This document shows positions 35,925 through 47,566 of a DNA stretch of 64,000 bases, piece after piece. This DNA is from Klebsiella pneumoniae (GTDB taxonomy: Bacteria > Pseudomonadota > Gammaproteobacteria > Pseudomonadales > Pseudohongiellaceae), in NCBI GenBank assembly GCA_945902215.1, contig CAMDML010000001.1, forward strand, positions 1-64,000. Direction: 5' to 3'. The number at the start of each line of letters is the position of its first letter. The first letter of the stretch is position 1. The notes beneath the pieces were generated by a model. It had not been told where the DNA came from, made no database searches, and was given only the letters and a program-made list of their open reading frames with translations. Position numbers and translations under genes: made by a program.

Positions 35925-36317
35925 TCAGTCTGCGCCGAGCACAACACCTATTTCAGTGCCGTCCGGGGTACGCACAGCGGTAACGTAACCGCCGTCTTCA
36001 GCATTACGCATCGGCGCGATGCGAATGGTGATGATATCGCCCAGCGTGAACATGTCCGGCTTCAGGCCTTGGCGCATCATGTTGTTGCGGCTGTGCCCTT
36101 CGAACTCGATGTTGCGAGTGCCGCGTGCATCGTCGGTAACTTCCAGAATCAGTTTCATGTGGGGGTTGGCGAAGCGGGCTTCCATGACCTTGCCTTCGAC
36201 CACAACGGTATTGCGGAAATCAAACTGCGCTGCCGAATGGTGGGCAAACGTCGGGGTGGCTGCCAAAACTGTCAACAGCAAGCCGGCTACTGCACTCATT
36301 AATTTTTTCACGGTCAT
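35925..36317 (-). CDS. DUF6152 family periplasmic protein (copy A)
   Basis: The 130-residue protein has a signal peptide (cleavage after P-T-F-A) and begins its mature part with H-H-S-A-A-Q-F-D, the DUF6152 hallmark. It continues with V-E-G-K-V, F-A-N-P-H-M-K-L and G-D-I-I-T-I-R. The fold is probably a small OB-like beta barrel; the exposed N-terminal histidines could bind metal. Function is unknown. It is the last gene of a six-gene leftward operon and follows a partner of the H-W-E-G-D family by 33 bases. Three further DUF6152 domains occur in this window. Confidence 0.8.
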   Translation of the reverse strand: MTVKKLMSAVAGLLLTVLAATPTFAHHSAAQFDFRNTVVVEGKVMEARFANPHMKLILEVTDDARGTRNIEFEGHSRNNMMRQGLKPDMFTLGDIITIRIAPMRNAEDGGYVTAVRTPDGTEIGVVLGAD

Positions 36318-36350
36318 TACCTCTCGTGGAGTTACTGAAAAATTTACGGG

Positions 36351-37136
36351 TTATTCCTGCACCATCTTCAGGCCGGCGGCCTCGTACAGCTCTGTCATCT
36401 CGTCGAGCCATTTCGGCTCTGAGCATTCGTAGGTCATCACGTGGTAGTCAGACATTCCCTGCCAGCGCTTGGTAGTGGTAAAGGGTTCTTCCAGCCACAG
36501 CGGGTCAGTCAGCGTCATTTCCGCAACGAGGACACGCGAGCCGTCTTCGAGTGGCGGATCCAGATAATAATCTTCGCGCACCGTGGCTTGATTGCTGTGT
36601 GGGTAACGTGAATCCACCTGGGTCTTGAGACGTGTGGTCTCGACGATCAGATGGTCGCCTTCCCAATGCGCTGTGGCGTAACCGTTGCGCTCGGGGAAAA
36701 AGCTCTGGGGATCGCGGATTTCGGCGCCGAGGTAGAAGCGGCGGACTTCGGAATGGGCTTCATAGATGACAAAAAGCTGGTCAGGACGCTGGATAATTTC
36801 CATCGGATAGCCGCCCGAGCCCAGCATCGAGCCCGGCATGCCGGAGCCAACGCAGGCATTGCCAGCGCCGTAGTTGGTGCCTTCAGTGACAGAGAGGAAT
36901 TCGGCTTGCGCTGCCAGCGCTGCGGCCGTCAGTTTGGGTGCTCCGGGTGGTGGGTTAAAACCACCGGGGGCGCCGTTGCCGCGGAAGGTGGTCCAGGCGC
37001 CGCTGAAATCAGGTTGTTCCTGCGCCTGCGTGGTGGGCGCAGTGCCAAGAGTAGTGGCCAGGACGGCCAGCGCCATGAATACTGTGAGACTGCGTTTGGC
37101 TGTGAGACCGCGGTTAAATGTTGTTGTGATGTGCAC
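36351..37136 (-). CDS. Secreted HWEGD-family protein (partner A)
   Basis: The 261-residue protein starts at GTG 37136, which has AGGGG six bases upstream; a longer in-frame start lacks such a site. The signal peptide ends T-T-Q-A-Q. The mature part opens P-D-F-S-G-A-W, then has G-G-Y-P-M-E-I-I-Q and A-H-W-E-G-D-H-L-I-V-E-T, and W-L-E-E-P-F. The same order of motifs is found in the products at 38024, 39024 and 46512 and in the fusion at 42790. The family is not one I can name. The motif repeat suggests a beta-barrel binding protein. It is adjacent to DUF6152 copy A. Confidence 0.7.
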   Translation of the reverse strand: MHITTTFNRGLTAKRSLTVFMALAVLATTLGTAPTTQAQEQPDFSGAWTTFRGNGAPGGFNPPPGAPKLTAAALAAQAEFLSVTEGTNYGAGNACVGSGMPGSMLGSGGYPMEIIQRPDQLFVIYEAHSEVRRFYLGAEIRDPQSFFPERNGYATAHWEGDHLIVETTRLKTQVDSRYPHSNQATVREDYYLDPPLEDGSRVLVAEMTLTDPLWLEEPFTTTKRWQGMSDYHVMTYECSEPKWLDEMTELYEAAGLKMVQE

Positions 37137-37214
37137 TGGTATCCCCTCATTCGATAAACCGGTAAATGATATCGGGGCTTGGTCTTTCACGCCATGCCCG
37201 TGCTGCATGGAATC

Positions 37215-38006
37215 TTAATTGTTGCCCTTGAATTGCGGGGGACGTTTTTCATTGAATGCAGTCATGCCTTCGCTGCGATCCGGTGCGTGGATGCAGCGCT
37301 TGTAGAGTTCGATTTCGCGCTGGTAACCACCGTGTAAATCGTTTCTCAGCGTCGCGTTGAGAGCCTGTTTTACCTGTCTGACAGCGAGCGCTGACGCGGA
37401 CTGGATGCTGCTTGCGACCTCCAGCACGGTGGTGAGCAGGCTGGACTGAGGCACTACTTTATTGAGTAGTCCCCAGGCCAATGCCTCCTCTGCGGAGAAT
37501 TGTGCACAAGTCGTGCACAGTTCTTTGGCGCGGGCCAGACCCACCGCGCGTGGCAGCCATTGCGTACCCATTGCACCGGGTATGAAGCCGAGTTTCGGTT
37601 CGGGAAACGCGAAGCGCGCTTCGGGGCAGCCGTAGGCGAAATCGCAATTGAGCACAAGTTCCAGGCCGCCGCCGAAGGCCGCACCATTCACTGCGGCGAT
37701 CACGGGCGGCGGGCACTCATGCATCGCCAGCATCATCTGCTCCAGCACGGCGTGCTGTTGCAACCAAAGTTCCGCAGAGATGCCGTGGCGTTCCTTGAGG
37801 TCAGCACCGGCGCAAAAACATTTGAGCCCGGTGCCGGTCAGCACCACTGCACGATACGAGTCAGGGTTTTCCGCCAAGTGTTGCCAGATGTTCAGCAACT
37901 CGCGCGTCATTATAGTGTCGAGTGCGTTGCTGACTGCGGGACGGTGCAGTTCGATGAGCAGCACACCCTCGTTGACGCGAGACGTGCGCAGGGTTGAATA
38001 CGCCAT
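37215..38006 (-). CDS. Enoyl-CoA hydratase/isomerase family protein
   Basis: The 263-residue crotonase-fold protein has C-A-G-A-D-L-K-E-R (oxyanion loop), N-G-A-A-F-G-G-G-L-E-L (first oxyanion/catalytic region), and E-P-K-L-G-F-I-P-G-A-M-G. This pattern is close to methylglutaconyl-CoA hydratase-like enzymes, but the exact substrate cannot be fixed. The ATG at 38006 gives a normal N-terminus. A GTG at 38024 overlapping the preceding stop codon (TAGTG) is an alternative and would imply coupling. It is the only cytoplasmic enzyme in an operon of otherwise exported proteins. Confidence 0.85.
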   Translation of the reverse strand: MAYSTLRTSRVNEGVLLIELHRPAVSNALDTIMTRELLNIWQHLAENPDSYRAVVLTGTGLKCFCAGADLKERHGISAELWLQQHAVLEQMMLAMHECPPPVIAAVNGAAFGGGLELVLNCDFAYGCPEARFAFPEPKLGFIPGAMGTQWLPRAVGLARAKELCTTCAQFSAEEALAWGLLNKVVPQSSLLTTVLEVASSIQSASALAVRQVKQALNATLRNDLHGGYQREIELYKRCIHAPDRSEGMTAFNEKRPPQFKGNN

Positions 38007-38023
38007 GGTGTGCAACGCAGGCA

Positions 38024-39001
38024 CTATTCGGCAGCCTGGGCCGCGTCTCGTTCTGCTGCGCGCTGGCCCGACAGGATGTTCGCCATGCCGTAGTTGCCTT
38101 CGGTGCAGGCGTATTCGAACAAGAGACCGTCGAGAGTGGTCAGTGGATACACTCCGCCCCAGGGTTCGTCCCAGGTCTCGGGGTCCTCGACACGGAAACT
38201 GTATTCCACGGTGTCAGCATCCTGCCGCGTGAGGCGTTCCGTCACGTGCATGTTCTCTGAGCCATTGCGCCACGCGGCATTTGGATGGAAGCCAAGGGTT
38301 TCAACCACGAGGGTGTCGCCTTCCCAGTGGCCAACCGAGGTACCGTTCCATTGCGGCAGGCCATCTTGTGGAGCAGCACCGCCACTGGTGGGGATGATGC
38401 GCGGGTCGCCCATTTCACCTTGAATGATCACGTAACCGGGACTCTGGAAAATCTGCAGATTACTGTTGTAACCACCGGGCAGAATCGGTGGCAAAGTGCT
38501 GGACCACACAATGCAGCGTTCGGTGAGTCCGCGCATCTCGGGGCCATCGTATTCATGTCCCAGCCGCACGGCGGCGCGGGCATCACGGCGCGCGATTGCG
38601 GTGTCATTCAGTGGCGGAATGCGCCCATTGGCAGGGAAGGTGATGATCGAGGTGCGCATGTTCTCCGACGTTTTACCTTCGTTTGCGCTTAGTGCATAAG
38701 TACCGAAGTCGTAGTGCACATCTTCAAGGGTGCCAGGTTCTGTTTCGTCGTCCTGATCAACGGTTTCAAGCTGCAGTTGCTGGTATTTCACGGCTTCGTC
38801 TGCGGTGAAGAATTCTTTTTCGCCGAGTTCGACTGGCCGTTCCAGCGGCGCGAGGGTGAACTCACTAAAGACGCCGGCGATATCCGGTTCGCCCCACGCG
38901 GTTTTTGGTTGTTGGGCATGCGCCGTGAATGATGCAGCGAGCAGCAGCAGGCTCAGCGCAGCATGGGTCTGCAATTTATTGTGTGAAGGTGTGTGTGTCA
39001 T
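38024..39001 (-). CDS. Secreted HWEGD-family protein (long form)
   Basis: The 325-residue protein starts at ATG 39001 with AGGAG seven bases upstream; an open frame extending to 39517 is not coding. The signal peptide ends T-A-H-A-Q. The mature sequence opens W-G-E-P-D-I-A-G-V-F and later has L-Q-I-F-Q-S-P-G-Y-V-I-I, S-V-G-H-W-E-G-D-T-L-V-V-E-T-L-G-F, H-V-T-E-R-L and E-P-W-G-G-V-Y. It shares the core with its neighbours but has about 60 extra residues near the N-terminus with an R-D-A-R-A-A region. It lies between the hydratase and the shorter paralogue at 39024. Confidence 0.7.
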   Translation of the reverse strand: MTHTPSHNKLQTHAALSLLLLAASFTAHAQQPKTAWGEPDIAGVFSEFTLAPLERPVELGEKEFFTADEAVKYQQLQLETVDQDDETEPGTLEDVHYDFGTYALSANEGKTSENMRTSIITFPANGRIPPLNDTAIARRDARAAVRLGHEYDGPEMRGLTERCIVWSSTLPPILPGGYNSNLQIFQSPGYVIIQGEMGDPRIIPTSGGAAPQDGLPQWNGTSVGHWEGDTLVVETLGFHPNAAWRNGSENMHVTERLTRQDADTVEYSFRVEDPETWDEPWGGVYPLTTLDGLLFEYACTEGNYGMANILSGQRAAERDAAQAAE

Positions 39002-39023
39002 GGGCATTCTCCTCACTCGCTCC

Positions 39024-39818
39024 TCATTCGGCCGCTGGTTTGCGCAGGTGGCCATAGAGTTTTTCTTCGGCGTAGGGTTCACATTTGAATTCGAGCAGAC
39101 GGTAATTGTCATCAACAATGCGATACAGCGGCATGCGCAGCGTCCATGGCTGCGAGTACACGGACGCATCATTGATCGTGGCTTCGTACTCCATGTGGTT
39201 CGGACCGAGCATGGTGTAGCGTTCGGTGATGCGGGCACCGGCACTCGCATAATTGCCGGCACGGTCCAGCCAGGTTTGGCCATTAAGGCCGCTGACGTCG
39301 ACAACGAAAGTGTCCCCCTCCCAGTGTGCGTTCGACCAGCCCAGCCAGCTGTCGAGCGGCGCTTCTTCGGTACGACCCAGCGCGATGCGGCGCAGGCCGG
39401 TAGCGTACTGGTAAACGATGACGACCTCGTTGACGTTCTGGAAAATCTGGAAAGGGTAGGGCATGTACGTGGAGCGCGGCACACCGCCGAGGTAGCACTT
39501 GCCTTCGGGGTCCTCAAGCAGACGGTTGGTGAAATTGCTGTCGCGCTGGGTGAGTGCTTCCGGCAGATACGGAATCTTGCCGCCGTCGACTACGCCGAGG
39601 CCTGGTGGCACGGCAAACTGCGCACCGAGTGCGGACACGACCGGGTATGCGGCCACATGCGGTTCAATATTCCAGTGCGCGGTATTCAGGGATTGCCATA
39701 CACCACTGAGATCAGGGTGACCGTCAGCAGCACGCGGGATTGCGACCAAGGGTTCAGCGCACACCGCGCGTACGACGAGCAGCGTGAGGGGCAATACAGC
39801 AGAGAGTATGCGCTTCAT
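39024..39818 (-). CDS. Secreted HWEGD-family protein (partner B)
   Basis: The 264-residue protein has a signal peptide (L-P-L-T-L-L-V-V-R-A-V-C-A) and mature motifs H-P-D-L-S-G-V-W, Y-P-F-Q-I-F-Q-N-V-N-E-V-V, A-H-W-E-G-D-T-F-V-V-D-V, A-R-I-T-E-R-Y and S-Q-P-W. Its start overlaps the stop of DUF6152 copy B by four bases, so the two are translationally coupled and probably act together. Conserved aromatic and acidic residues in the shared core could form a ligand pocket. No enzyme motif is recognised. Confidence 0.72.
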   Translation of the reverse strand: MKRILSAVLPLTLLVVRAVCAEPLVAIPRAADGHPDLSGVWQSLNTAHWNIEPHVAAYPVVSALGAQFAVPPGLGVVDGGKIPYLPEALTQRDSNFTNRLLEDPEGKCYLGGVPRSTYMPYPFQIFQNVNEVVIVYQYATGLRRIALGRTEEAPLDSWLGWSNAHWEGDTFVVDVSGLNGQTWLDRAGNYASAGARITERYTMLGPNHMEYEATINDASVYSQPWTLRMPLYRIVDDNYRLLEFKCEPYAEEKLYGHLRKPAAE

Positions 39819-40237
39819 TGCAGGGGGTCGCCTGGTGCACGCGAGCCATCGAAAAACAGTTCGCGGCCATCAGCAAAAGTGATGTCGCGGCCCACGGCTT
39901 TGTTCGAGCCATCGCGTGCCTGGTAACCGCTGACGACAAGTTCGGAACCGACAGGAATGGTTGCTTTCGTCACGCCGCGCCGTATCAGCGCATTCGGGCT
40001 GCCGCCTTCGACCATCCATACGACAGCGGTGCCACTGTCATCTTTGACCTCGACATGAATCCACGAATGCGGATTGATGAGCTCAACCTTGGTCACGGTG
40101 CCGTGCAGGGTCACCGGTCGGCCGGCGTCGAATTCCATGGAAAAAGCATGATGGGCTAGCACGCCGCTGGTTGTGCCGAATGTGGCAAGCACGAGCATTG
40201 CGCAAGAAATAAGGATACCCAGAGCCGTTGACCGCAT
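39815..40237 (-). CDS. DUF6152 family periplasmic protein (copy B)
   Basis: The 140-residue protein has a signal peptide ending G-V-L-A followed by H-H-A-F-S-M-E-F-D, then G-T-V-T-K-V-E-L-I-N-P-H-S-W-I-H-V and a late G-R-D-I-T-F-A-D-G. It is the first gene of the leftward operon and diverges from the PQQ dehydrogenase at 40484, so both may answer to the same control sites in the 246-base gap. The four-base overlap with partner B supports a functional pair. Confidence 0.82.
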   Translation of the reverse strand: MRSTALGILISCAMLVLATFGTTSGVLAHHAFSMEFDAGRPVTLHGTVTKVELINPHSWIHVEVKDDSGTAVVWMVEGGSPNALIRRGVTKATIPVGSELVVSGYQARDGSNKAVGRDITFADGRELFFDGSRAPGDPLQ

Positions 40238-40381
40238 ACTGCCCCCTTTGCATGTGCGTGAGTTCTGTCCGTAAGTTCCGGTCGTGATCTGCTGTCACTT
40301 TGAGTCCGGAATGCCAGCTCAGAATGCAGTGGGCGGTGGCGTCTGTCAATGCTGGAAAGGGTGCCTGACAAGTCCGGGCCA

Positions 40382-40407
40382 GTGGTGCACAATATCAGGT
40401 GTACCAC
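40382..40407. promoter_or_regulatory. Candidate operator palindrome between divergent operons
   Basis: GTGGTGCAC (40382-40390) and GTGTACCAC (40399-40407) are reverse complements with one mismatch and an 8-base spacer. The site lies in the gap between the leftward DUF6152 operon (start 40237) and the rightward PQQ dehydrogenase (start 40484). A dyad of this size suits a dimeric regulator. No regulator gene is adjacent, and no promoter hexamers can be placed with certainty. Confidence 0.4.
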
Positions 40408-40483
40408 GCTTGCCCATGGCTTGCCAAAAAGTACCTGCCAAATCGCAACGATCCAAAAAACTATTTCCAAAGGGGATAAATCC

Positions 40484-42688
40484 ATGAAACACAGCCGTTT
40501 GTTTGCTGCAACCGCGCTGGCCTTGGCCGTGTTGTCCGGCTGCCAGCCTGCTGAGCAAGAATCGACCCAAGCCACCGACTCTGCCGCTGCACCCGCCGCC
40601 CAAACTGCATCCACTGCAGCCAATGTCACTACTGAGCGCCTGCTCAATGCCGACGCCGAGCCAGGCCAATGGATGATGAATGGCGGTACTTATGAAGAAA
40701 CCCATTACAGCGCGCTGAATGAGATCTCGCGCGACACCATCGACCGCCTCAGCCTCGGCTGGTTCGCCGACTACGACACCAACCTGTCACAGCAAGGCAC
40801 ACCCCTCTATGTTGATGGTGTGATCTACGTCTCCACCGCATGGAGCTCGGTCTACGCATACGATGCACGTACCGGCGCGCAGCTCTGGCATTTCGACCCG
40901 AAGACACCCAAGGAAATTGCGATCAAGGTGTGCTGCGGTATCGTCAATCGTGGCATTGCTGCTTATGAAGGCAAAATCTACATCGGCGCACTCGACGGCA
41001 ACCTGTATGCCATCGACGCGGCCACCGGCCAGGAACTCTGGCACAAGCAGACTGTTGACGTGGACAAGCAGTACACCGTTACCAGCGCGCCGCGCATCAT
41101 CAAAGGCCAGGTCGTTATCGGCAACTCCGGTAGCGAGTTCGGCGTGCGTGGCTATCTCGGTGCCTACAATGCCACGACCGGGGAAGACCTGTGGCGCGTA
41201 TACACCGTACCCGGCAACCCGGAACTTGGTTTTGAAAACCCGACCATGGCTATGGCTGCCAAGACCTGGAGTGGCAACTGGTGGGAACTGGGCGGGGGCG
41301 GCACCGTATGGGACGCTATCGTGTATGACGAAGTGAACAACCTCATCATGTTCGGCACCGGCAACGGCACTCCGTGGGATCAGCGCGTGCGTGATCCGGA
41401 AGGTGGCGACAACCTGTTCGTAGCCTCGATTCTCGCAGTGAATGCCGACAGCGGCGAGTACGTCTGGCACTACCAGACTACCCCGGGCGACACGTGGGAC
41501 TATGATGCGATGAGCCCGATCATGCTGCTCGATCTCACTTTCGACGGCGTCGAGCGTCGCACCGTGGTACAGCCGAACAAGAACGGCATGATGTATGTGC
41601 TTGATGCCGCCACGGGTCAGATACTAAAGGGTGATGCGTTCACCGAAGTGAACTGGAACACCGGCATCGACATGGCCACCGGCCGTCCAATTGAAGTGCC
41701 GGCTGCCCGTTACGATCGCGACAACATCTACAACCTGGCTCCCGGTGTACAGGGTGGTCACGGCTGGCATGCCAATGCCTGGAACCCGGCAACCGGCTTG
41801 ATCTACATTGCCGCACAGCGTGCGTACTTCGTCATGCGCACTGCCGAGAACTTCGTTGCCAATCCGCAGGGTACCAACCTTGGTATCGACATGGGCGCAA
41901 GCCTCCTCTATTACAAGGACAACCCGGATGCACCGCGTGAATTCGTCGGCTACGTGTCGGCGTGGGATCCGGTAGCGGGCAAGGAAGTCTGGCGCAGTGA
42001 AGAACTGGGTGGTCCGACGGGCGGCGTACTGTCCACTGGCGGTGGTCTGGTGTTCTCTGGCGGCGGCAACAACAACAACGTGTTCCGTGCATTCAACACC
42101 GAGACTGGCGCGAAAGTGTGGGAGTTCAACACCCAGACTGGCATGGTTGCCGCGCCGATCACCTATGAACTGGATGGCAAGCAGTACATCGCCGCCAGCG
42201 TTGGTATCAATCAGGCTGGCAACTACTACGCGCCGAACTATTCGCGTTTGCTTGTGTTCACCCTGGATGGCGCTGCAGTGTTGCCAGAACCCGTGAGCTT
42301 CACCGCACCACAGCTGAGCCCGCCGCCGATGACTGCCAGTGCTGAAGTCGTGGCCCATGGTGCTGAGGTCTATAATGCGAACTGCTCGACTTGTCATGGC
42401 AACGGTGGTGCGGCACGTGGCGCCAACTTCCCGAACCTGCTGGTGAGCCCGATGCTGCATTCGCAGGAAGGCTTCGACGCTATCGTACTGGGTGGCGCTC
42501 GGCAGCAAAACGGCATGGTGAGCTTTGCCGACCGCGTTACTGCGGAAGACAGTGCTGCAGTTTTGGCGTATCTGGTTTCGCGCGCCACCGAAGCGCTGGC
42601 TGCACAGCAGGCTCCGCCACCTATCCAGACAGCGCCAGAGCCGGCGGAAGATGTGCATGATGAAACTGAAGCTACCGAAGAAAATTAA
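40484..42688 (+). CDS. PQQ-dependent dehydrogenase with C-terminal cytochrome c (lipoprotein)
   Basis: The 734-residue quinohaemoprotein starts at ATG 40484 behind AGGGG. L-A-V-L-S-G-C is a lipobox, so the protein would be lipid-anchored. The propeller has Cys150-Cys151 (V-C-C-G-I-V-N-R-G), Glu in S-G-S-E-F-G-V-R-G, Asn in G-T-G-N-G-T-P-W and catalytic Asp339 followed by Asp341 (T-W-D-Y-D-A). The Asp pair is typical of lanthanide-dependent alcohol dehydrogenases. A class I cytochrome c follows with C-S-T-C-H (634-638). The C-terminal tail is acidic. Downstream are the DUF6152 fusion and an SDR. It likely oxidises an alcohol and passes electrons to its own haem. Confidence 0.92.
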   Translation: MKHSRLFAATALALAVLSGCQPAEQESTQATDSAAAPAAQTASTAANVTTERLLNADAEPGQWMMNGGTYEETHYSALNEISRDTIDRLSLGWFADYDTNLSQQGTPLYVDGVIYVSTAWSSVYAYDARTGAQLWHFDPKTPKEIAIKVCCGIVNRGIAAYEGKIYIGALDGNLYAIDAATGQELWHKQTVDVDKQYTVTSAPRIIKGQVVIGNSGSEFGVRGYLGAYNATTGEDLWRVYTVPGNPELGFENPTMAMAAKTWSGNWWELGGGGTVWDAIVYDEVNNLIMFGTGNGTPWDQRVRDPEGGDNLFVASILAVNADSGEYVWHYQTTPGDTWDYDAMSPIMLLDLTFDGVERRTVVQPNKNGMMYVLDAATGQILKGDAFTEVNWNTGIDMATGRPIEVPAARYDRDNIYNLAPGVQGGHGWHANAWNPATGLIYIAAQRAYFVMRTAENFVANPQGTNLGIDMGASLLYYKDNPDAPREFVGYVSAWDPVAGKEVWRSEELGGPTGGVLSTGGGLVFSGGGNNNNVFRAFNTETGAKVWEFNTQTGMVAAPITYELDGKQYIAASVGINQAGNYYAPNYSRLLVFTLDGAAVLPEPVSFTAPQLSPPPMTASAEVVAHGAEVYNANCSTCHGNGGAARGANFPNLLVSPMLHSQEGFDAIVLGGARQQNGMVSFADRVTAEDSAAVLAYLVSRATEALAAQQAPPPIQTAPEPAEDVHDETEATEEN

Positions 42689-42701
42689 GTAGATGAACAA
42701 C

Positions 42702-42749
42702 GGGGTCAGAGTGGCTTGAACATCTCAAGTTGCCCTGGCCCCTTTTTTT
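42702..42749 (+). terminator. Rho-independent terminator after the PQQ dehydrogenase
   Basis: An 18-bp stem pairs 42702-42719 (beginning GGGGTCAGAG) with 42725-42742 (ending TGGCCCC), with several G-U pairs and one mismatch, followed by seven T residues (42743-42749). It follows the stop codon by 13 bases and probably separates the dehydrogenase from the fusion-protein gene, at least partly. Confidence 0.85.
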
Positions 42750-42789
42750 GCCCCAGATTTATTCAAGTTTCCGCATTGGAGCTCGCGTC

Positions 42790-43872
42790 ATGAAAAAAGC
42801 CTTGCTTGCCACGCTCGTTGCTGCACTTGCCGTTCCTGCCAGCGCCCACCATTCTGTCACCACCCATTTCGACATGACCCGCAGCATTGAAATCCGCGGC
42901 GTAGTCGTTGATTTTAAATTGCGCAGCCCGCATGCCTCACTTGTTGTCGATGGCCAAAGCTATATCGACGGCGTACTGCAGGATGAAACCGTGCAGCGCT
43001 GGGAGATTGAATCTTCCGCCGCGCCGGGCTTGCGCACGATGGGGATTACGCCGGAGACTTTCAAACCCGGCGACGCGATTACTGTTGTTGCGGCTCCCAA
43101 CCGTCAGCCGGACTTCCGCTTCGTCAATTCTTCCAACTTCACCGACAGCAAGGGCACTCGCTACAGCCGCGCCACTGCGGTACGCGCCCAAAATGCAACG
43201 GTGGATGCCGTCTCAGCCCAGCAAGGCCTCGCGCGCATGGCAGGCCGCTGGAACGCCCCCGGCGGTTTTGGCCGCCCCGAGGGTTCGCCGTTGCCGCTGA
43301 ATGAAACAGGGCGCGCGGCATGGGAAAGCTATGATGCGAAGTTGTCGCCGGCCAATACTTGCGAGCCGATGAATTTTCCCGACATGTTCAACGCGCCGTA
43401 TCTGTTTGATGTCCAGGTGAATGGCAATGAACTCGTGATCCACAACCAGCCCTGGGAAGCAGTACGCACAATTCCCTTGGACAATACCGAAATTACCACT
43501 GTGCCTGCCGGCATCTTCGGTGTGGTGAAAGGACGTCTGGAAGGGACAACGGTAGTACTGGAAAGTGAACGCTTCCCGCCGTCGCGCTGGGGGCTTGGCA
43601 GTGCTACGCAATTTCTCGGCAGTGGCGCCGATATGCCTTCGAGTGAACAGAAGAGGCTGATTGAACGTTTTACCTTGAGCGAAGATGGCCTGACGCTGAA
43701 CTACGACTACACGCTCGAAGATTCAACTTACCTCAGTCAGCCCTTCAACGGCCGTCTGCAATTCACCCGCCTGGCGGCCGCTACGCCGATGTATCCCTAT
43801 GACTGCGTGGTGGAAGCCGCGTCGATGTTTTCGCGTACTCCGGAAGACGCAGCACTTCAGGTGGGGCAGTGA
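42790..43872 (+). CDS. Fusion of DUF6152 and HWEGD-family domains
   Basis: The 360-residue exported protein begins with a signal peptide (A-A-L-A-V-P-A-S-A) and mature H-H-S-V-T-T-H-F-D, i.e. a DUF6152 domain (about 20-130, with F-K-L-R-S-P-H-A-S-L and G-D-A-I-T-V). It continues into a domain with R-M-A-G-R-W, V-V-K-G-R-L-E-G-T-T-V-V-L-E, L-I-E-R-F-T-L and Y-L-S-Q-P-F, matching the order seen in the separate HWEGD proteins. The fusion is direct evidence that the two families work together. It lies between the PQQ dehydrogenase and an SDR gene, with a GTGA overlap into the latter. The ATG at 42790 is well placed. Confidence 0.78.
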   Translation: MKKALLATLVAALAVPASAHHSVTTHFDMTRSIEIRGVVVDFKLRSPHASLVVDGQSYIDGVLQDETVQRWEIESSAAPGLRTMGITPETFKPGDAITVVAAPNRQPDFRFVNSSNFTDSKGTRYSRATAVRAQNATVDAVSAQQGLARMAGRWNAPGGFGRPEGSPLPLNETGRAAWESYDAKLSPANTCEPMNFPDMFNAPYLFDVQVNGNELVIHNQPWEAVRTIPLDNTEITTVPAGIFGVVKGRLEGTTVVLESERFPPSRWGLGSATQFLGSGADMPSSEQKRLIERFTLSEDGLTLNYDYTLEDSTYLSQPFNGRLQFTRLAAATPMYPYDCVVEAASMFSRTPEDAALQVGQ

Positions 43873-44621
43873 GCAGAAAAACGGCCATTGTCACCGGCGC
43901 CAGCAGCGGTATCGGCAGAGCTTGCGCCATCGGTTTGCTGAGGGCGGGCTGGCAGACGGTGTTTGTCAGTCGTCATGCCGAGGCGCTTGCAGCCGCGATA
44001 CGGGACGCAGGCGAAGTGAATGCCGAGGCGCTGGCGCTGACCTGCGATATCAGCAATGCGGAACAGGTAGAGGAACTGTTTGCCAAGGTCATGGCTGCGT
44101 TCGGCCGCATCGACCTGCTGTTCAACAACGCGGGTATCAGCGGGCCGCGCGGCACGGTGGATGAAATATCGGTGACGGAATGGGAGCGCACTGTTGCGGT
44201 CAACATCAACGGCAGCTTCCTGTGCGCACGCGCGGCGTTTGCTGCGATGAAGCAACAACAACCGCAGGGTGGGCGCATCATCAATAACGGGTCCATTGCA
44301 GCCCACACACCACGCCCGCACACCTCACCCTACGCCGTCACCAAACACGCCATCATGGGTCTTACCAAATGTCTCGCGCTAGATGGGCGTCCGTTCAATA
44401 TCGCCTGCGGCCAAATCGACATAGGCAACGTGCGCACCGAGATGACCGTGCCGATGGCACAGGGAATGTTGCAGGCGAACGGCGCGCAAATGAAGGAGCC
44501 GGTGTTCGAGCTGGCTCATGTGGTGGATGCTGTGCTCTACATGGCGAATTTGCCGCCGGACGCGAACGTTCAGTTCATGACCGTCATGGCAACGAAAATG
44601 CCGTATATCGGCAGGGGTTGA
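43869..44621 (+). CDS. Short-chain dehydrogenase/reductase
   Basis: The 250-residue Rossmann-fold enzyme has the cofactor motif T-G-A-S-S-G-I-G (9-16), N-N-A-G (86-89), Ser142 in N-N-G-S-I-A-A-H, and the catalytic Tyr155-x3-Lys159 (Y-A-V-T-K). The GTG start overlaps the stop of the fusion gene by four bases, implying co-translation with an exported protein. SDRs interconvert alcohols and ketones with NAD(P). Asp60 after the second strand and the S-R-H at 34-36 suggest NADP use, though not firmly. Substrate is unknown. Confidence 0.9.
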   Translation: MSRKTAIVTGASSGIGRACAIGLLRAGWQTVFVSRHAEALAAAIRDAGEVNAEALALTCDISNAEQVEELFAKVMAAFGRIDLLFNNAGISGPRGTVDEISVTEWERTVAVNINGSFLCARAAFAAMKQQQPQGGRIINNGSIAAHTPRPHTSPYAVTKHAIMGLTKCLALDGRPFNIACGQIDIGNVRTEMTVPMAQGMLQANGAQMKEPVFELAHVVDAVLYMANLPPDANVQFMTVMATKMPYIGRG

Positions 44622-44671
44622 GGGCGGGATTGGATCCGGGACAGTCGGGTGGACTGCCCCGGGCTCACCCA

Positions 44672-45982
44672 TTACTGCTGGAACACGACCTTGCCTTCCT
44701 TGATCGTGGTAACGACATTCAGCAATGCAGTGGTGTCCGTCATCGGATCACCGTCAATGATGACGATATCGCCGTACTTGCCGGCTTCCAATGTGCCAAA
44801 TTCAGCGCCGTGCAGCGTCGCGATCGCTGCATTCTTGGTGATGATTTCCACGATCTGGCGTGGCGAGAACACCAATCCCAGCGCGCGCAATTCATCGTGC
44901 AGTGACTGTTTCGGCGGCCACTGCGTGTCGGTGCCATAGCCGTACATTTGACCGGCTTCTGCCAACAGGCGTGCATTTACCGGACCTTGGCCTGCGCTGG
45001 ACAAGGTGTCCCAGGGGAACGGCCCCGCATCGCGGAACAAGGCCGCACCCGTGTCATCAAAATGCGGTACGAACACAGACAAAGTCGACGTCATCGGAAT
45101 ATTGGCGGCGATAATTTTTTGCAGCGCTTCCGGATTTTCATCGAGGCGGCCGACATGTGGTGTGTGCACCAGCATCGCCGGACCTGCGTCGACGGCCAGC
45201 GCTGCGTCTTGCACGCTCACCGCATGCACGATTGACGGCATACCCACTTTCTTGCCTTCTTCGACAATCAGTTTCAGTGTCTCGATTTCAGGACCGCCCG
45301 GCGTCGTGTTGACAACGGATTTCAGATAGTCGTAACCGTTGGCCTTTGCCGCTGCGATCATGCCGATGATGACTTCATTGGGTATGGCAGGGGCGGCACG
45401 CGTGGCGCCGCCGATACGCGCCGGATCGGTGCGTGCCGGATCACCCGGCTCTGCCGGGGCTGCGTCAGGATCGGCACCGGCCACCGGGATGAAGGTGCCG
45501 GTGAACAAGCGTGGGCCCTGCAGGGTGCCGCTCGCAATCGCCTGCTTCGCTTCGTTGATCGGCTGGCCATCAATCGCTGAAAGCACGGTGGTGAAACCGG
45601 CGTCGAGAAATTCCTGCATCTGCGCGGGAGCGCGTTCCATCAGCCAGGTATCCGGATTGCCTGTGATCACGTGACGGTGGCCTTCGACAAACCCCGGCAT
45701 GACGGTTTTGCCGCCGGCGTCGATCACTTGCACGCCTTCTATGGACTGCGGATCGGCGCCGACAGAAACGATCCTGCCCTCGCGGATGACGACAGTGCCA
45801 TTCTCGATGACGCCGCCGTTGCCATCCAGAATACGACCATTGGTGATGATAAGCGCGCCGATTTCGGTTGCCAGCGGTGCTGCGGCGGCGGGAGTGGCGG
45901 TGGTCGCCTCGTCATTACCGCTGCAACCGCCGAGAAGAATGGCCGCAGCGAGAATGGTTGTGAGCCTGTTTAGCATTTTCAT
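44672..45982 (-). CDS. Amidohydrolase-family lipoprotein
   Basis: The 436-residue protein has a lipobox I-L-L-G-G-C, so it is probably a periplasmic lipoprotein. The amidohydrolase core starts A-L-I-I-T-N-G-R-I-L-D-G. The metal site is visible as G-F-V-E-G-H-R-H (HxH), His in I-V-H-A-V-S and H-T-P-H, and a late Asp in Y-G-T-D-T-Q. The C-terminal beta-sandwich has G-T-L-E-A-G-K-Y-G-D-I-V-I-I-D-G-D-P. The family hydrolyses amide, lactam or cyclic ester bonds. It converges with the SDR gene and is a separate transcription unit. Confidence 0.85.
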   Translation of the reverse strand: MKMLNRLTTILAAAILLGGCSGNDEATTATPAAAAPLATEIGALIITNGRILDGNGGVIENGTVVIREGRIVSVGADPQSIEGVQVIDAGGKTVMPGFVEGHRHVITGNPDTWLMERAPAQMQEFLDAGFTTVLSAIDGQPINEAKQAIASGTLQGPRLFTGTFIPVAGADPDAAPAEPGDPARTDPARIGGATRAAPAIPNEVIIGMIAAAKANGYDYLKSVVNTTPGGPEIETLKLIVEEGKKVGMPSIVHAVSVQDAALAVDAGPAMLVHTPHVGRLDENPEALQKIIAANIPMTSTLSVFVPHFDDTGAALFRDAGPFPWDTLSSAGQGPVNARLLAEAGQMYGYGTDTQWPPKQSLHDELRALGLVFSPRQIVEIITKNAAIATLHGAEFGTLEAGKYGDIVIIDGDPMTDTTALLNVVTTIKEGKVVFQQ

Positions 45983-46076
45983 CGGAAGTGTCTCATGAGT
46001 TTATTGTAGGTATTCGGCCCGCATCTGCCAGTGCTGACCGGGAGTATACAGAAAGTGCACTTATACGGGGCTCGAT

Positions 46077-46472
46077 TCAGAGCAGCGGCGTACCGTCGGC
46101 GCGCGTGGGATTGTTGCGCTCCATCAGCAAGCCGTGCGCCCCCTCAAGCAGAGCGGGATGGCCCTTCACCGTGATTGTGTCGCCCGGCTTGAAGGTTTCT
46201 GCCGAATAACCGCGGCGGACCAGGTGCGTCACCGCGGAGCCGCCGTAACTGACATCCCATTGAGCAACCGTGCCGTCAGCGGCGGTCACTTCCAACGTCA
46301 GGCTCGGATGCGGATTGATGAAACGCCAGGCCTGCACCGTACCCGTCAGTTCAATTTCGCGCGCCTCATCGTAAATGCCGTTGGTGCTGTGATGGCCGAA
46401 GGCGAGCGCGGCCGCAAGGCTGAACCCGAGGGCAGTACCGAGTGTAGTACAAAGTTTTTTCAGATTGGTCAT
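46077..46472 (-). CDS. DUF6152 family periplasmic protein (copy C)
   Basis: The 131-residue protein has a signal peptide ending L-A-F-G followed by H-H-S-T-N-G-I-Y-D. It then has L-T-G-T-V-Q-A-W-R-F-I-N-P-H-P-S-L-T-L and F-K-P-G-D-T-I-T-V-K-G-H, near-identical in pattern to copies A and B. It lies 39 bases downstream of an HWEGD-family gene and forms the third separate pair of this kind in the window. Confidence 0.82.
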   Translation of the reverse strand: MTNLKKLCTTLGTALGFSLAAALAFGHHSTNGIYDEAREIELTGTVQAWRFINPHPSLTLEVTAADGTVAQWDVSYGGSAVTHLVRRGYSAETFKPGDTITVKGHPALLEGAHGLLMERNNPTRADGTPLL

Positions 46473-46511
46473 GGCAAGATCTCCTGGCTAATTATAAATG
46501 CAAAGGTCAGG

Positions 46512-47273
46512 TCAGTATTGGATGCGCTGAATCGGCGGATCGGTGGGATAGTCGCTGGGCATTAGCTTCAGGATCTCGCGCGAACCGTCCAGGTCGCAGG
46601 CCCACGGCAGCGACAGCGGATTGGGATCGCGTTCGGAGCGCACTTTGTACACCCAGGGTTCCTTCAGGAAAAAGGTGTCGATCGTTGTGACTTCCAGCAC
46701 GAGGTCGCCTTCCGTGATCGAGTAACGTTCCGTCACTTCCTTCTGCGTTGATGAGGCGAGTTTGAAATCAGCGTTCAGTCCTTGCGGGTCGAAGGTGAAC
46801 TTCGTGGTTTCGACGATCAGCTCGCCGTTCTCGTAGTGGCCGGTTGAGTGACCAAAATAAGTGAACTCATTGATGGCCGGTTGCGGGTGGCCGTGGCCAT
46901 CCAGCCAGACGGTGCGCACCACGTCATCCTTGCCGTAAGTGAAGACAACACGGTCATCAAACTGTTCGATCTGGTGTGAATACGGATCGGTCCACAGATG
47001 CGGAATGGAAATCGGCGCGCAGTCATACTTCGGTTGGGCGGCCTCCTCGATCGCATCACGGTAGGCTTTGGCGCGCCCGGTCAAACGCGCATCATCTTGC
47101 TCCAGCAGCATGCAACGGAAGCCGTCGGCTCCCACGCACTGGCCCCATTGCCAGACACCGCGCAGATCCGGAATCGCGTCTTCCGCGGCCTGTGCAGAAC
47201 AGGCACCGGTCAGCGCCAACGCTGCACATGGAATCACCAGGAATTTTTTTAAGGTAATAGCTGTATGTGTCAC
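46512..47273 (-). CDS. Secreted HWEGD-family protein (partner C)
   Basis: The 253-residue protein uses GTG 47273 behind GAGGGG; another GTG at 47291 has no ribosome site. The signal peptide ends A-C-S-A-Q-A-A-E. Mature motifs are I-P-D-L-R-G-V-W-Q-W, F-D-D-R-V-V-F-T-Y, S-T-G-H-Y-E-N-G-E-L-I-V-E-T, E-V-T-E-R-Y-S-I and L-K-E-P-W, which follow the family order although H-W-E-G-D is degraded to H-Y-E-N-G. Several cysteines are present (C-V-G-A-D-G-F-R-C). It is paired with DUF6152 copy C. Confidence 0.7.
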   Translation of the reverse strand: MTHTAITLKKFLVIPCAALALTGACSAQAAEDAIPDLRGVWQWGQCVGADGFRCMLLEQDDARLTGRAKAYRDAIEEAAQPKYDCAPISIPHLWTDPYSHQIEQFDDRVVFTYGKDDVVRTVWLDGHGHPQPAINEFTYFGHSTGHYENGELIVETTKFTFDPQGLNADFKLASSTQKEVTERYSITEGDLVLEVTTIDTFFLKEPWVYKVRSERDPNPLSLPWACDLDGSREILKLMPSDYPTDPPIQRIQY

Positions 47274-47566
47274 GTTCCCCTCGCAGAGCACTGGTTAGAA
47301 GCTCCATCATTGCGCCAATTCAGAGTCCGTTCAATCCCCGTCGACAAATAACCGCTGCCACAATTTCTCCACATTCGCAGATGGCGTTATTGCGCAACAA
47401 ACGCCAGTGTTGTCATTGCCGGCGTTGGATGAGAGCCGCATGATACAGATCTACATTGGGCCGGCCGACAGCATGCAGCAGCCCCGGAATGAGCATTGCA
47501 CACAGCAGGTATAATTTTTTCAGTGATTGAGTTCCTTCTTTTTCTGGTTTTGCTTGCGAGTGCCCC
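47274..47566. other. Intergenic region, no gene seen
   Basis: These 293 bases between two leftward genes contain only short open frames without ribosome sites. AACGCC (47400-47405) and GGCGTT (47421-47426) form a small dyad. A run of T at 47515-47520 and pyrimidine-rich sequence near 47540 lie close to the end of the PepSY gene. It probably holds the promoter of the leftward HWEGD/DUF6152 pair. Confidence 0.5.

Follow-up and report, generated by a model that had tools for sequence, protein, structure and literature searches.

DUF6152 proteins and their predicted barrel partners as a putative N-terminal-histidine metal module in Pseudohongiellaceae

Why should one bacterial genome carry dozens of copies of the same pair of exported proteins, and what could such a pair do? 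The question is raised by positions 35,925 to 47,273 of a 64,000-nucleotide stretch of contig CAMDML010000001.1 (assembly GCA_945902215.1; the whole stretch is called the window here), where a small protein of the Pfam family DUF6152 (PF19649; D in the following) recurs beside a member of a larger, exported and unnamed partner family (H). Our analysis indicates that D and H almost certainly constitute one functional unit. From its sequence and a structural model D is read as an OB-fold (oligonucleotide/oligosaccharide-binding fold) kind of N-terminal-histidine metalloprotein that would act with a ligand-binding barrel, H. The D–H module appears to be undescribed so far.

An earlier reading of the letters alone (the sequence-only reading) had placed three D/H pairs, an extra paralogue and a fusion in this region, and every open reading frame (ORF) that it named lies where it was placed. 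The H profile was built from separate H genes only, without the fusion proteins, and the curated cut-off of the Pfam DUF6152 profile is 27 bits. The members in the window are:

35925..36317, minus strand: separate D; Pfam 73.7 bits; predicted mature start H-H-S at 36242
36351..37208, minus strand: H-family protein (predicted barrel), partner of 35925; H profile E = 7e-59
38024..39007, minus strand: extra H-family paralogue with a longer N-terminal part; H profile E = 3e-45
39024..39818, minus strand: H-family protein, partner of 39815; H profile E = 5e-70; modelled as a calycin/FABP-like barrel (residues 22–264)
39815..40237, minus strand: D, partner of 39024; Pfam 107.1 bits; predicted mature start H-H-A at 40153; modelled as an OB fold
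42790..43872, plus strand: natural D–H fusion; Pfam DUF6152 60.2 bits; second half, H profile E = 6e-29
46077..46472, minus strand: separate D; Pfam 72.9 bits; predicted mature start H-H-S at 46394
46512..47291, minus strand: H-family protein, partner of 46077; H profile E = 1e-57

The larger proteins had been taken for one family, and the H profile does find 36351, 38024, 39024 and 46512 at E ≤ 1e-44. It also identifies the second half of the 42790 protein as a clear member of the family of 39024, as proposed; the predicted mature start of this fusion is H-H-S at 42847, and alignment assigns about 42847–43185 to D and about 43174–43821 to H. The four-base overlap of the 39815/39024 pair is confirmed (bases 39815–39818). 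The gene at 38024 is present, with its start near 39007 and not at 39517 as first given, and the annotated start of 36351 may be too far upstream.

Pairing of D and H

The source genome (2.85 Mb in 107 contigs) contains 53 D genes at the DUF6152 cut-off and about 62 H genes by the profile from separate H. An H gene lies within 1 kb of 49 of the 53 D, on the same strand in 46 of these cases, where the chance expectation is 6% per D; conversely, 51 of the approximately 62 H have a D within 1 kb. Sixteen D–H fusions occur in this genome, 42790 being one of them.

A link between DUF6152 and the H family in other genomes was the outcome set beforehand as decisive for the pairing, and it is found. 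In a scan of a genome collection, 76 of 80 loci from Gamma- and Alphaproteobacteria, Acidobacteria and Acidimicrobiia carry an H in the retrieved flank. No stretch of the whole D alignment is conserved enough for a search of the collection; the scan used a single D as query and hence favours the less distant members of the family. An even draw of 298 other genomes across the phylum, with the best eight candidates scored in each and the counts of H therefore lower bounds, provides a less biased check: a strong D is accompanied by H in eight genomes and stands without H in one, H without D occurs in none and 289 have neither (Fisher p = 6e-15). Ten sister-genus genomes possess one or two D, and in nine of them H is beside the D that was examined.

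The architecture of the fusions is one-sided. All 23 D–H fusions in the gathered loci have D at the N-terminus and the order H–D is never seen, whereas separate same-strand pairs occur in both orders (H first in 55, D first in 50). Such a restriction is explained if D needs a free N-terminus, which the D-first order preserves. The trees, although poorly resolved, imply at least nine changes of fusion state. Distances amongst D proteins are correlated with those amongst their H partners (Mantel r = 0.78 for 135 separate pairs; r = 0.39 for pairs inside the source genome), and none of 2000 permutations reached the observed value. The D and H of each pair therefore descend together. Adjacency, linkage across phyla, co-occurrence, the 23 fusions and this co-variation uphold D and H as a functional unit; that they also form a stable complex, as the sequence-only reading had proposed, is probable.

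Histidines of D and predicted folds

In all 188 distinct D sequences the export signal runs into His-His (one had been misaligned by the script). In 180 of them the residue before it is one that a normal cleavage site permits (Ala, Ser, Gly, Cys or Thr), and in the other eight it is Pro. In each of the 53 source-genome D, fusions included, a signal end of the A-x-A type is followed directly by His-His, from which we infer that mature D starts with His-His after cleavage. An internal histidine is placed in an [N/S/M]-Pro-His motif at mature residues 27 to 31 (N-P-H at residue 28 in the 35925 protein); the exception in this genome, at locus L073, reads Q-P-N-H. The only invariant columns in an alignment of 78 D sequences are His1, His2, Pro28, His29 and Gly60, and amongst 50 source-genome D of about 29% identity G18 and H29 are invariant too. 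Even a distant subfamily of D that lacks H retains the His-His, as H-H-G-W. The sequence-only reading had described the small protein as an H-H-S type, which is correct as far as it goes, but it missed the pointer to a metal given by a mature N-terminal His-His together with Pro-His.

In the histidine brace a metal is held by the amine of the N-terminal residue and by side chains of histidines (PMC10952591). Like the proteins that carry it, D has a histidine at the mature N-terminus, the cleavage site being predicted, and a second conserved histidine further on. The conserved histidines suggest that D has a metal site of similar construction. We regard metal binding at the N-terminus of D as likely, and the case that this metal is copper as evenly balanced.

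The model of the mature 39815 protein has a mean pLDDT (predicted local distance difference test) of 89.9. Its top structural matches are all OB proteins, amongst them PriB (Z = 9.1, root-mean-square deviation 2.7 over 81 aligned residues), and model and search are consistent with a five-stranded OB barrel; D is accordingly assigned a predicted OB fold. Searches of PDB sequences with single proteins and with profiles identified no relatives. CusF and CcmE are not amongst the structural matches of D, which is uninformative either way.

By sequence or profile, nothing in Pfam, NCBIfam or the PDB matches the H proteins. The model of 39024 (mean pLDDT 92.5) matches mostly FABP and CRBP structures at its top, with Z between 8.2 and 8.8 (CRBP1: Z = 8.8, root-mean-square deviation 3.1, 123 aligned residues). 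Nearly all top matches agree and a G-x-W lies in the first strand, so a calycin/FABP-like barrel is predicted for H, and this fold would in turn imply a ligand pocket. The stable features of the family are G18-x-W20 (G18 in 100% and W20 in 96% of sequences), C87 and C225, which are two near-invariant cysteines, an invariant arginine and a near-invariant glutamate, with R122, G139, G-x-W-[E/D]-G-D and E178-R179-Y/F amongst the conserved positions. The shared motif had been given as HWEGD. Its W-[E/D]-G-D part stands, but the first position is Arg in 36, His in 30 and Lys in six of 81 sequences; the true motif is thus G-x-W-[E/D]-G-D, and a catalytic or metal-binding role for that histidine is rejected.

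Some H proteins are longer. One protein of the source genome is a tandem H–H double barrel of 559 residues and immediately precedes a D (L048:3279-4955; contig C13:20966-22642), and H matches are also found in ORFs of about 500–620 residues in many relatives. A longer H subfamily of 466–531 residues has weak profile scores (C29:1187, C29:15070, C31:6391 and C24:39135). Three of these four copies have no D within 5 kb, and the subfamily possibly has another function.

Metal, ligand or both

The reading that we favour, with moderate confidence, is that D with an N-terminal metal and H as a ligand barrel make up one periplasmic module. D and H would be two halves of a single exported protein module, with the export signal of D cut directly before the two histidines. 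The free N-terminal amine, the side chain of His1 (perhaps also that of His2) and the histidine of N-P-H would together ligate a transition metal, with copper the likeliest candidate, as a histidine brace does. H, a barrel with one probable disulfide, would be docked to D or fused behind it, and each H paralogue would hold its own specific ligand. The many divergent pairs would then be variants of a single metal-plus-pocket chassis, between them fitted to many ligands that the cell takes up or oxidises.

The D and H copies are old, their median pairwise identity in the source genome being 29 and 24%, respectively. Ten genomes of the same genus have 18 to 64 D each, and two other genera of the family have 18 to 71 D per genome. 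Because this repertoire is large and diversified, ligand-specific work is favoured, and the genes near D in some lineages, described below, favour metal handling. We place paralogue-specific handling of a ligand or substrate, as opposed to plain metal traffic, just short of an even chance. A bolder version would make D–H a class of copper oxygenase or peroxygenase, with a histidine brace on an OB fold, a pocket supplied by a separate calycin barrel and electrons from c-type cytochromes; it is speculative and rather improbable. Two D copies, L043:3380-3493 and L075:5022-5135, are identical over 38 mature residues and have different signal peptides, one copy being truncated by a contig end; their likeness suggests recent gene conversion or duplication.

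Several observations weigh against the metal-plus-ligand module. The eight D with Pro before His-His form one clade (L088, L092, L093, L095, L096, L104, L113 and L115), in which signal peptidase should not cut after the proline. The structural match of H (Foldseek E from 1.6e-3, Z = 8.8) is near the level reached by common arrangements. Five further genera of the family have one to three D yet at least seven to 41 H per genome, these being lower bounds because at most 46 candidates were scored in each; H can thus function without D. More than 50 copies is also far above any known metal-trafficking need, and the only HupE_UreJ_2 gene of the source genome, from a family that adjoins D–H in sister genera, lies away from any D or H. 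If the Pro-clade proteins were cut before the proline, they would start Pro-His-His with a histidine at position 3.

The strongest competitor, although unlikely, is metal trafficking, in which D would be a periplasmic metal chaperone or scavenger, comparable to CopC in its work with CopD, and H the receptor or store that receives the metal from D or gives it up to D, with no organic-ligand chemistry. Of the N-terminal-histidine proteins studied to date, monooxygenases apart, most bind metals or transport them (PMC10952591; PMC12537917), and several neighbours of D are in keeping with such a role. The D relatives without H adjoin a small membrane protein, DUF6644 (PF20349), in 20 of 20 loci; the aligned DUF6644 family has one invariant histidine. 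A DUF6644-like tandem pair is directly beside D–H in six further loci (L063, L103, L140, L158, L161 and L170), so D pairs with DUF6644 outside the H-less subfamily as well. One of these, L063:5136-6208, is in the source genome, on contig C77, at a D–H fusion.

In sister genera (L192–L201) a single D–H pair lies beside HupE_UreJ_2, of the HupE/UreJ_2 nickel-permease family, in nine of ten loci, and the signal of this protein likewise has a histidine after it. A CxxCH cytochrome c′-like lipoprotein and a further membrane protein without a Pfam match are each beside D–H in ten of ten, and the three genes make up a conserved block. These loci are largely orthologous and count as few independent events. 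In another family, at L168, the same kind of CxxCH cytochrome adjoins D. HupE_UreJ_2 is ruled out as a general partner, as it was seen near D–H in the sister genera only.

Diverse genes surround D and H in the source genome. There is a mild excess of TonB receptors, 16 lying within 5 kb of the module against an expectation of 7.1 (p = 0.001), which is a further point for metal trafficking. No metal-export or copper-resistance family, however, stood out amongst these neighbours, and the divergence of 50 or more paralogues, matched by that of their partners, speaks for diversification of substrates more than for homeostasis. Genes for PSD/PSCyt (DUF1592/1588) and ankyrin-repeat proteins are also close to D/H genes. 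The genome has 17 HXXSHH (DUF1552) genes (for example C77:8918-9769 and C72:5091-6002); in a genome-wide test their occurrence near D/H was not clearly above chance.

A second alternative dispenses with the metal: D would be an OB-fold binding protein whose histidines serve folding, heme binding or docking of H, and H would carry hydrophobic compounds to dehydrogenases dependent on pyrroloquinoline quinone (PQQ). The resemblance of the predicted H fold to fatty-acid and retinol carriers is in its favour, as is the cluster in the window, which includes a PQQ quinohemoprotein, a short-chain dehydrogenase/reductase (SDR), a hydratase and an amidohydrolase. The neighbours are:

40349..42688, plus strand: PQQ-dependent alcohol dehydrogenase, methanol/ethanol family, with a C-terminal cytochrome c domain; TIGR03075 559 bits and cytochrome c matches
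43869: SDR, neighbour of the module
37215: enoyl-CoA hydratase, neighbour of the module
32569: second PQQ-domain protein

The sequence-only reading had named the first three of these correctly and had tied the module to the oxidation system. This tie is weak across the source genome, where a D or H lies no more than 1 kb from three of the 24 PQQ genes, against an expectation of 1.5 (p = 0.18), and no more than 5 kb from seven of them, against 3.7 (p = 0.065), and the dehydrogenase at 40349 is probably a neighbour outside the D–H module. Moreover, three histidines stay fixed in proteins with only about 29% identity, and two of the three directly adjoin the predicted cleavage point; this is difficult to account for unless a ligand, for example a metal or a heme, is bound. 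We regard a metal-free D as improbable.

An artefact of assembly or annotation, with contamination or repeated contigs producing the high copy number, can be dismissed: the source assembly is split into 107 contigs, and contig ends truncate two copies (C15 and C87), but the estimated contamination is 0.2%, the copies are old and divergent and the multicopy congeners refute it, and for these same reasons the expansion in this lineage is real and lineage-specific.

Known families and significance

The four D copies of the window score 60 to 107 bits as full members of Pfam DUF6152. The family entry gives no function and describes neither the mature His-His start nor an association with H or DUF6644. 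Our literature search identified no paper naming DUF6152.

The closest parallels to D are exported metalloproteins with a histidine at the mature N-terminus and a further conserved histidine: LPMO, CopC, DUF4198, DUF6702, YcnI and Ang-1/Ang-2. Families picked solely for a signal peptide ending in histidine bound Cu or Ni in vitro, and an N-terminal-histidine domain fused to HupE/UreJ-2 bound Cu with a Kd of 74 nM (PMC12537917); the main text of that study does not mention DUF6152. Ang-1 adjoins HupE/UreJ-2, as D does in some genomes. D differs from these families in its two consecutive histidines and its soluble partner, a predicted barrel, and DUF6702 and Ang-1 are reported to be beta-sandwiches, whereas an OB fold is predicted for D. 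The D proteins of the window have no match at E ≤ 1 to any of these families, the CopC, LPMO, DUF4198 and DUF6702 profiles included. The association of the H-less D with a small membrane protein resembles the CopC–CopD pair, but the partner is DUF6644 and not CopD.

CusF and CcmE are periplasmic OB-fold chaperones for copper and heme, respectively, and hold the metal or heme through histidine. Their ligands are internal, whereas those of D would be N-terminal, and neither profile matches the D of the window at E ≤ 1. H is predicted to be a barrel of the kind seen in the calycins (FABP, CRBP and lipocalins), with G-x-W in the first strand. It is set apart by extra helices, by its conserved Cys, Arg and Glu residues and by the absence of a sequence match.

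D and H occur in Gamma- and Alphaproteobacteria, Acidobacteria and Actinobacteria, with up to 71 D in a genome, and neither has an assigned function. The histidine pattern turns DUF6152 into a family with a specific, testable function. If the mature N-terminus of D does bind copper, this would add a new fold to the histidine-brace proteins, one paired with a ligand barrel, and would open up many unexplored candidates for metalloenzymes or carriers of metals in the periplasm. Should the oxygenase version hold, the dozens of substrate-specific pairs would be a bacterial periplasmic counterpart of the P450 repertoire.

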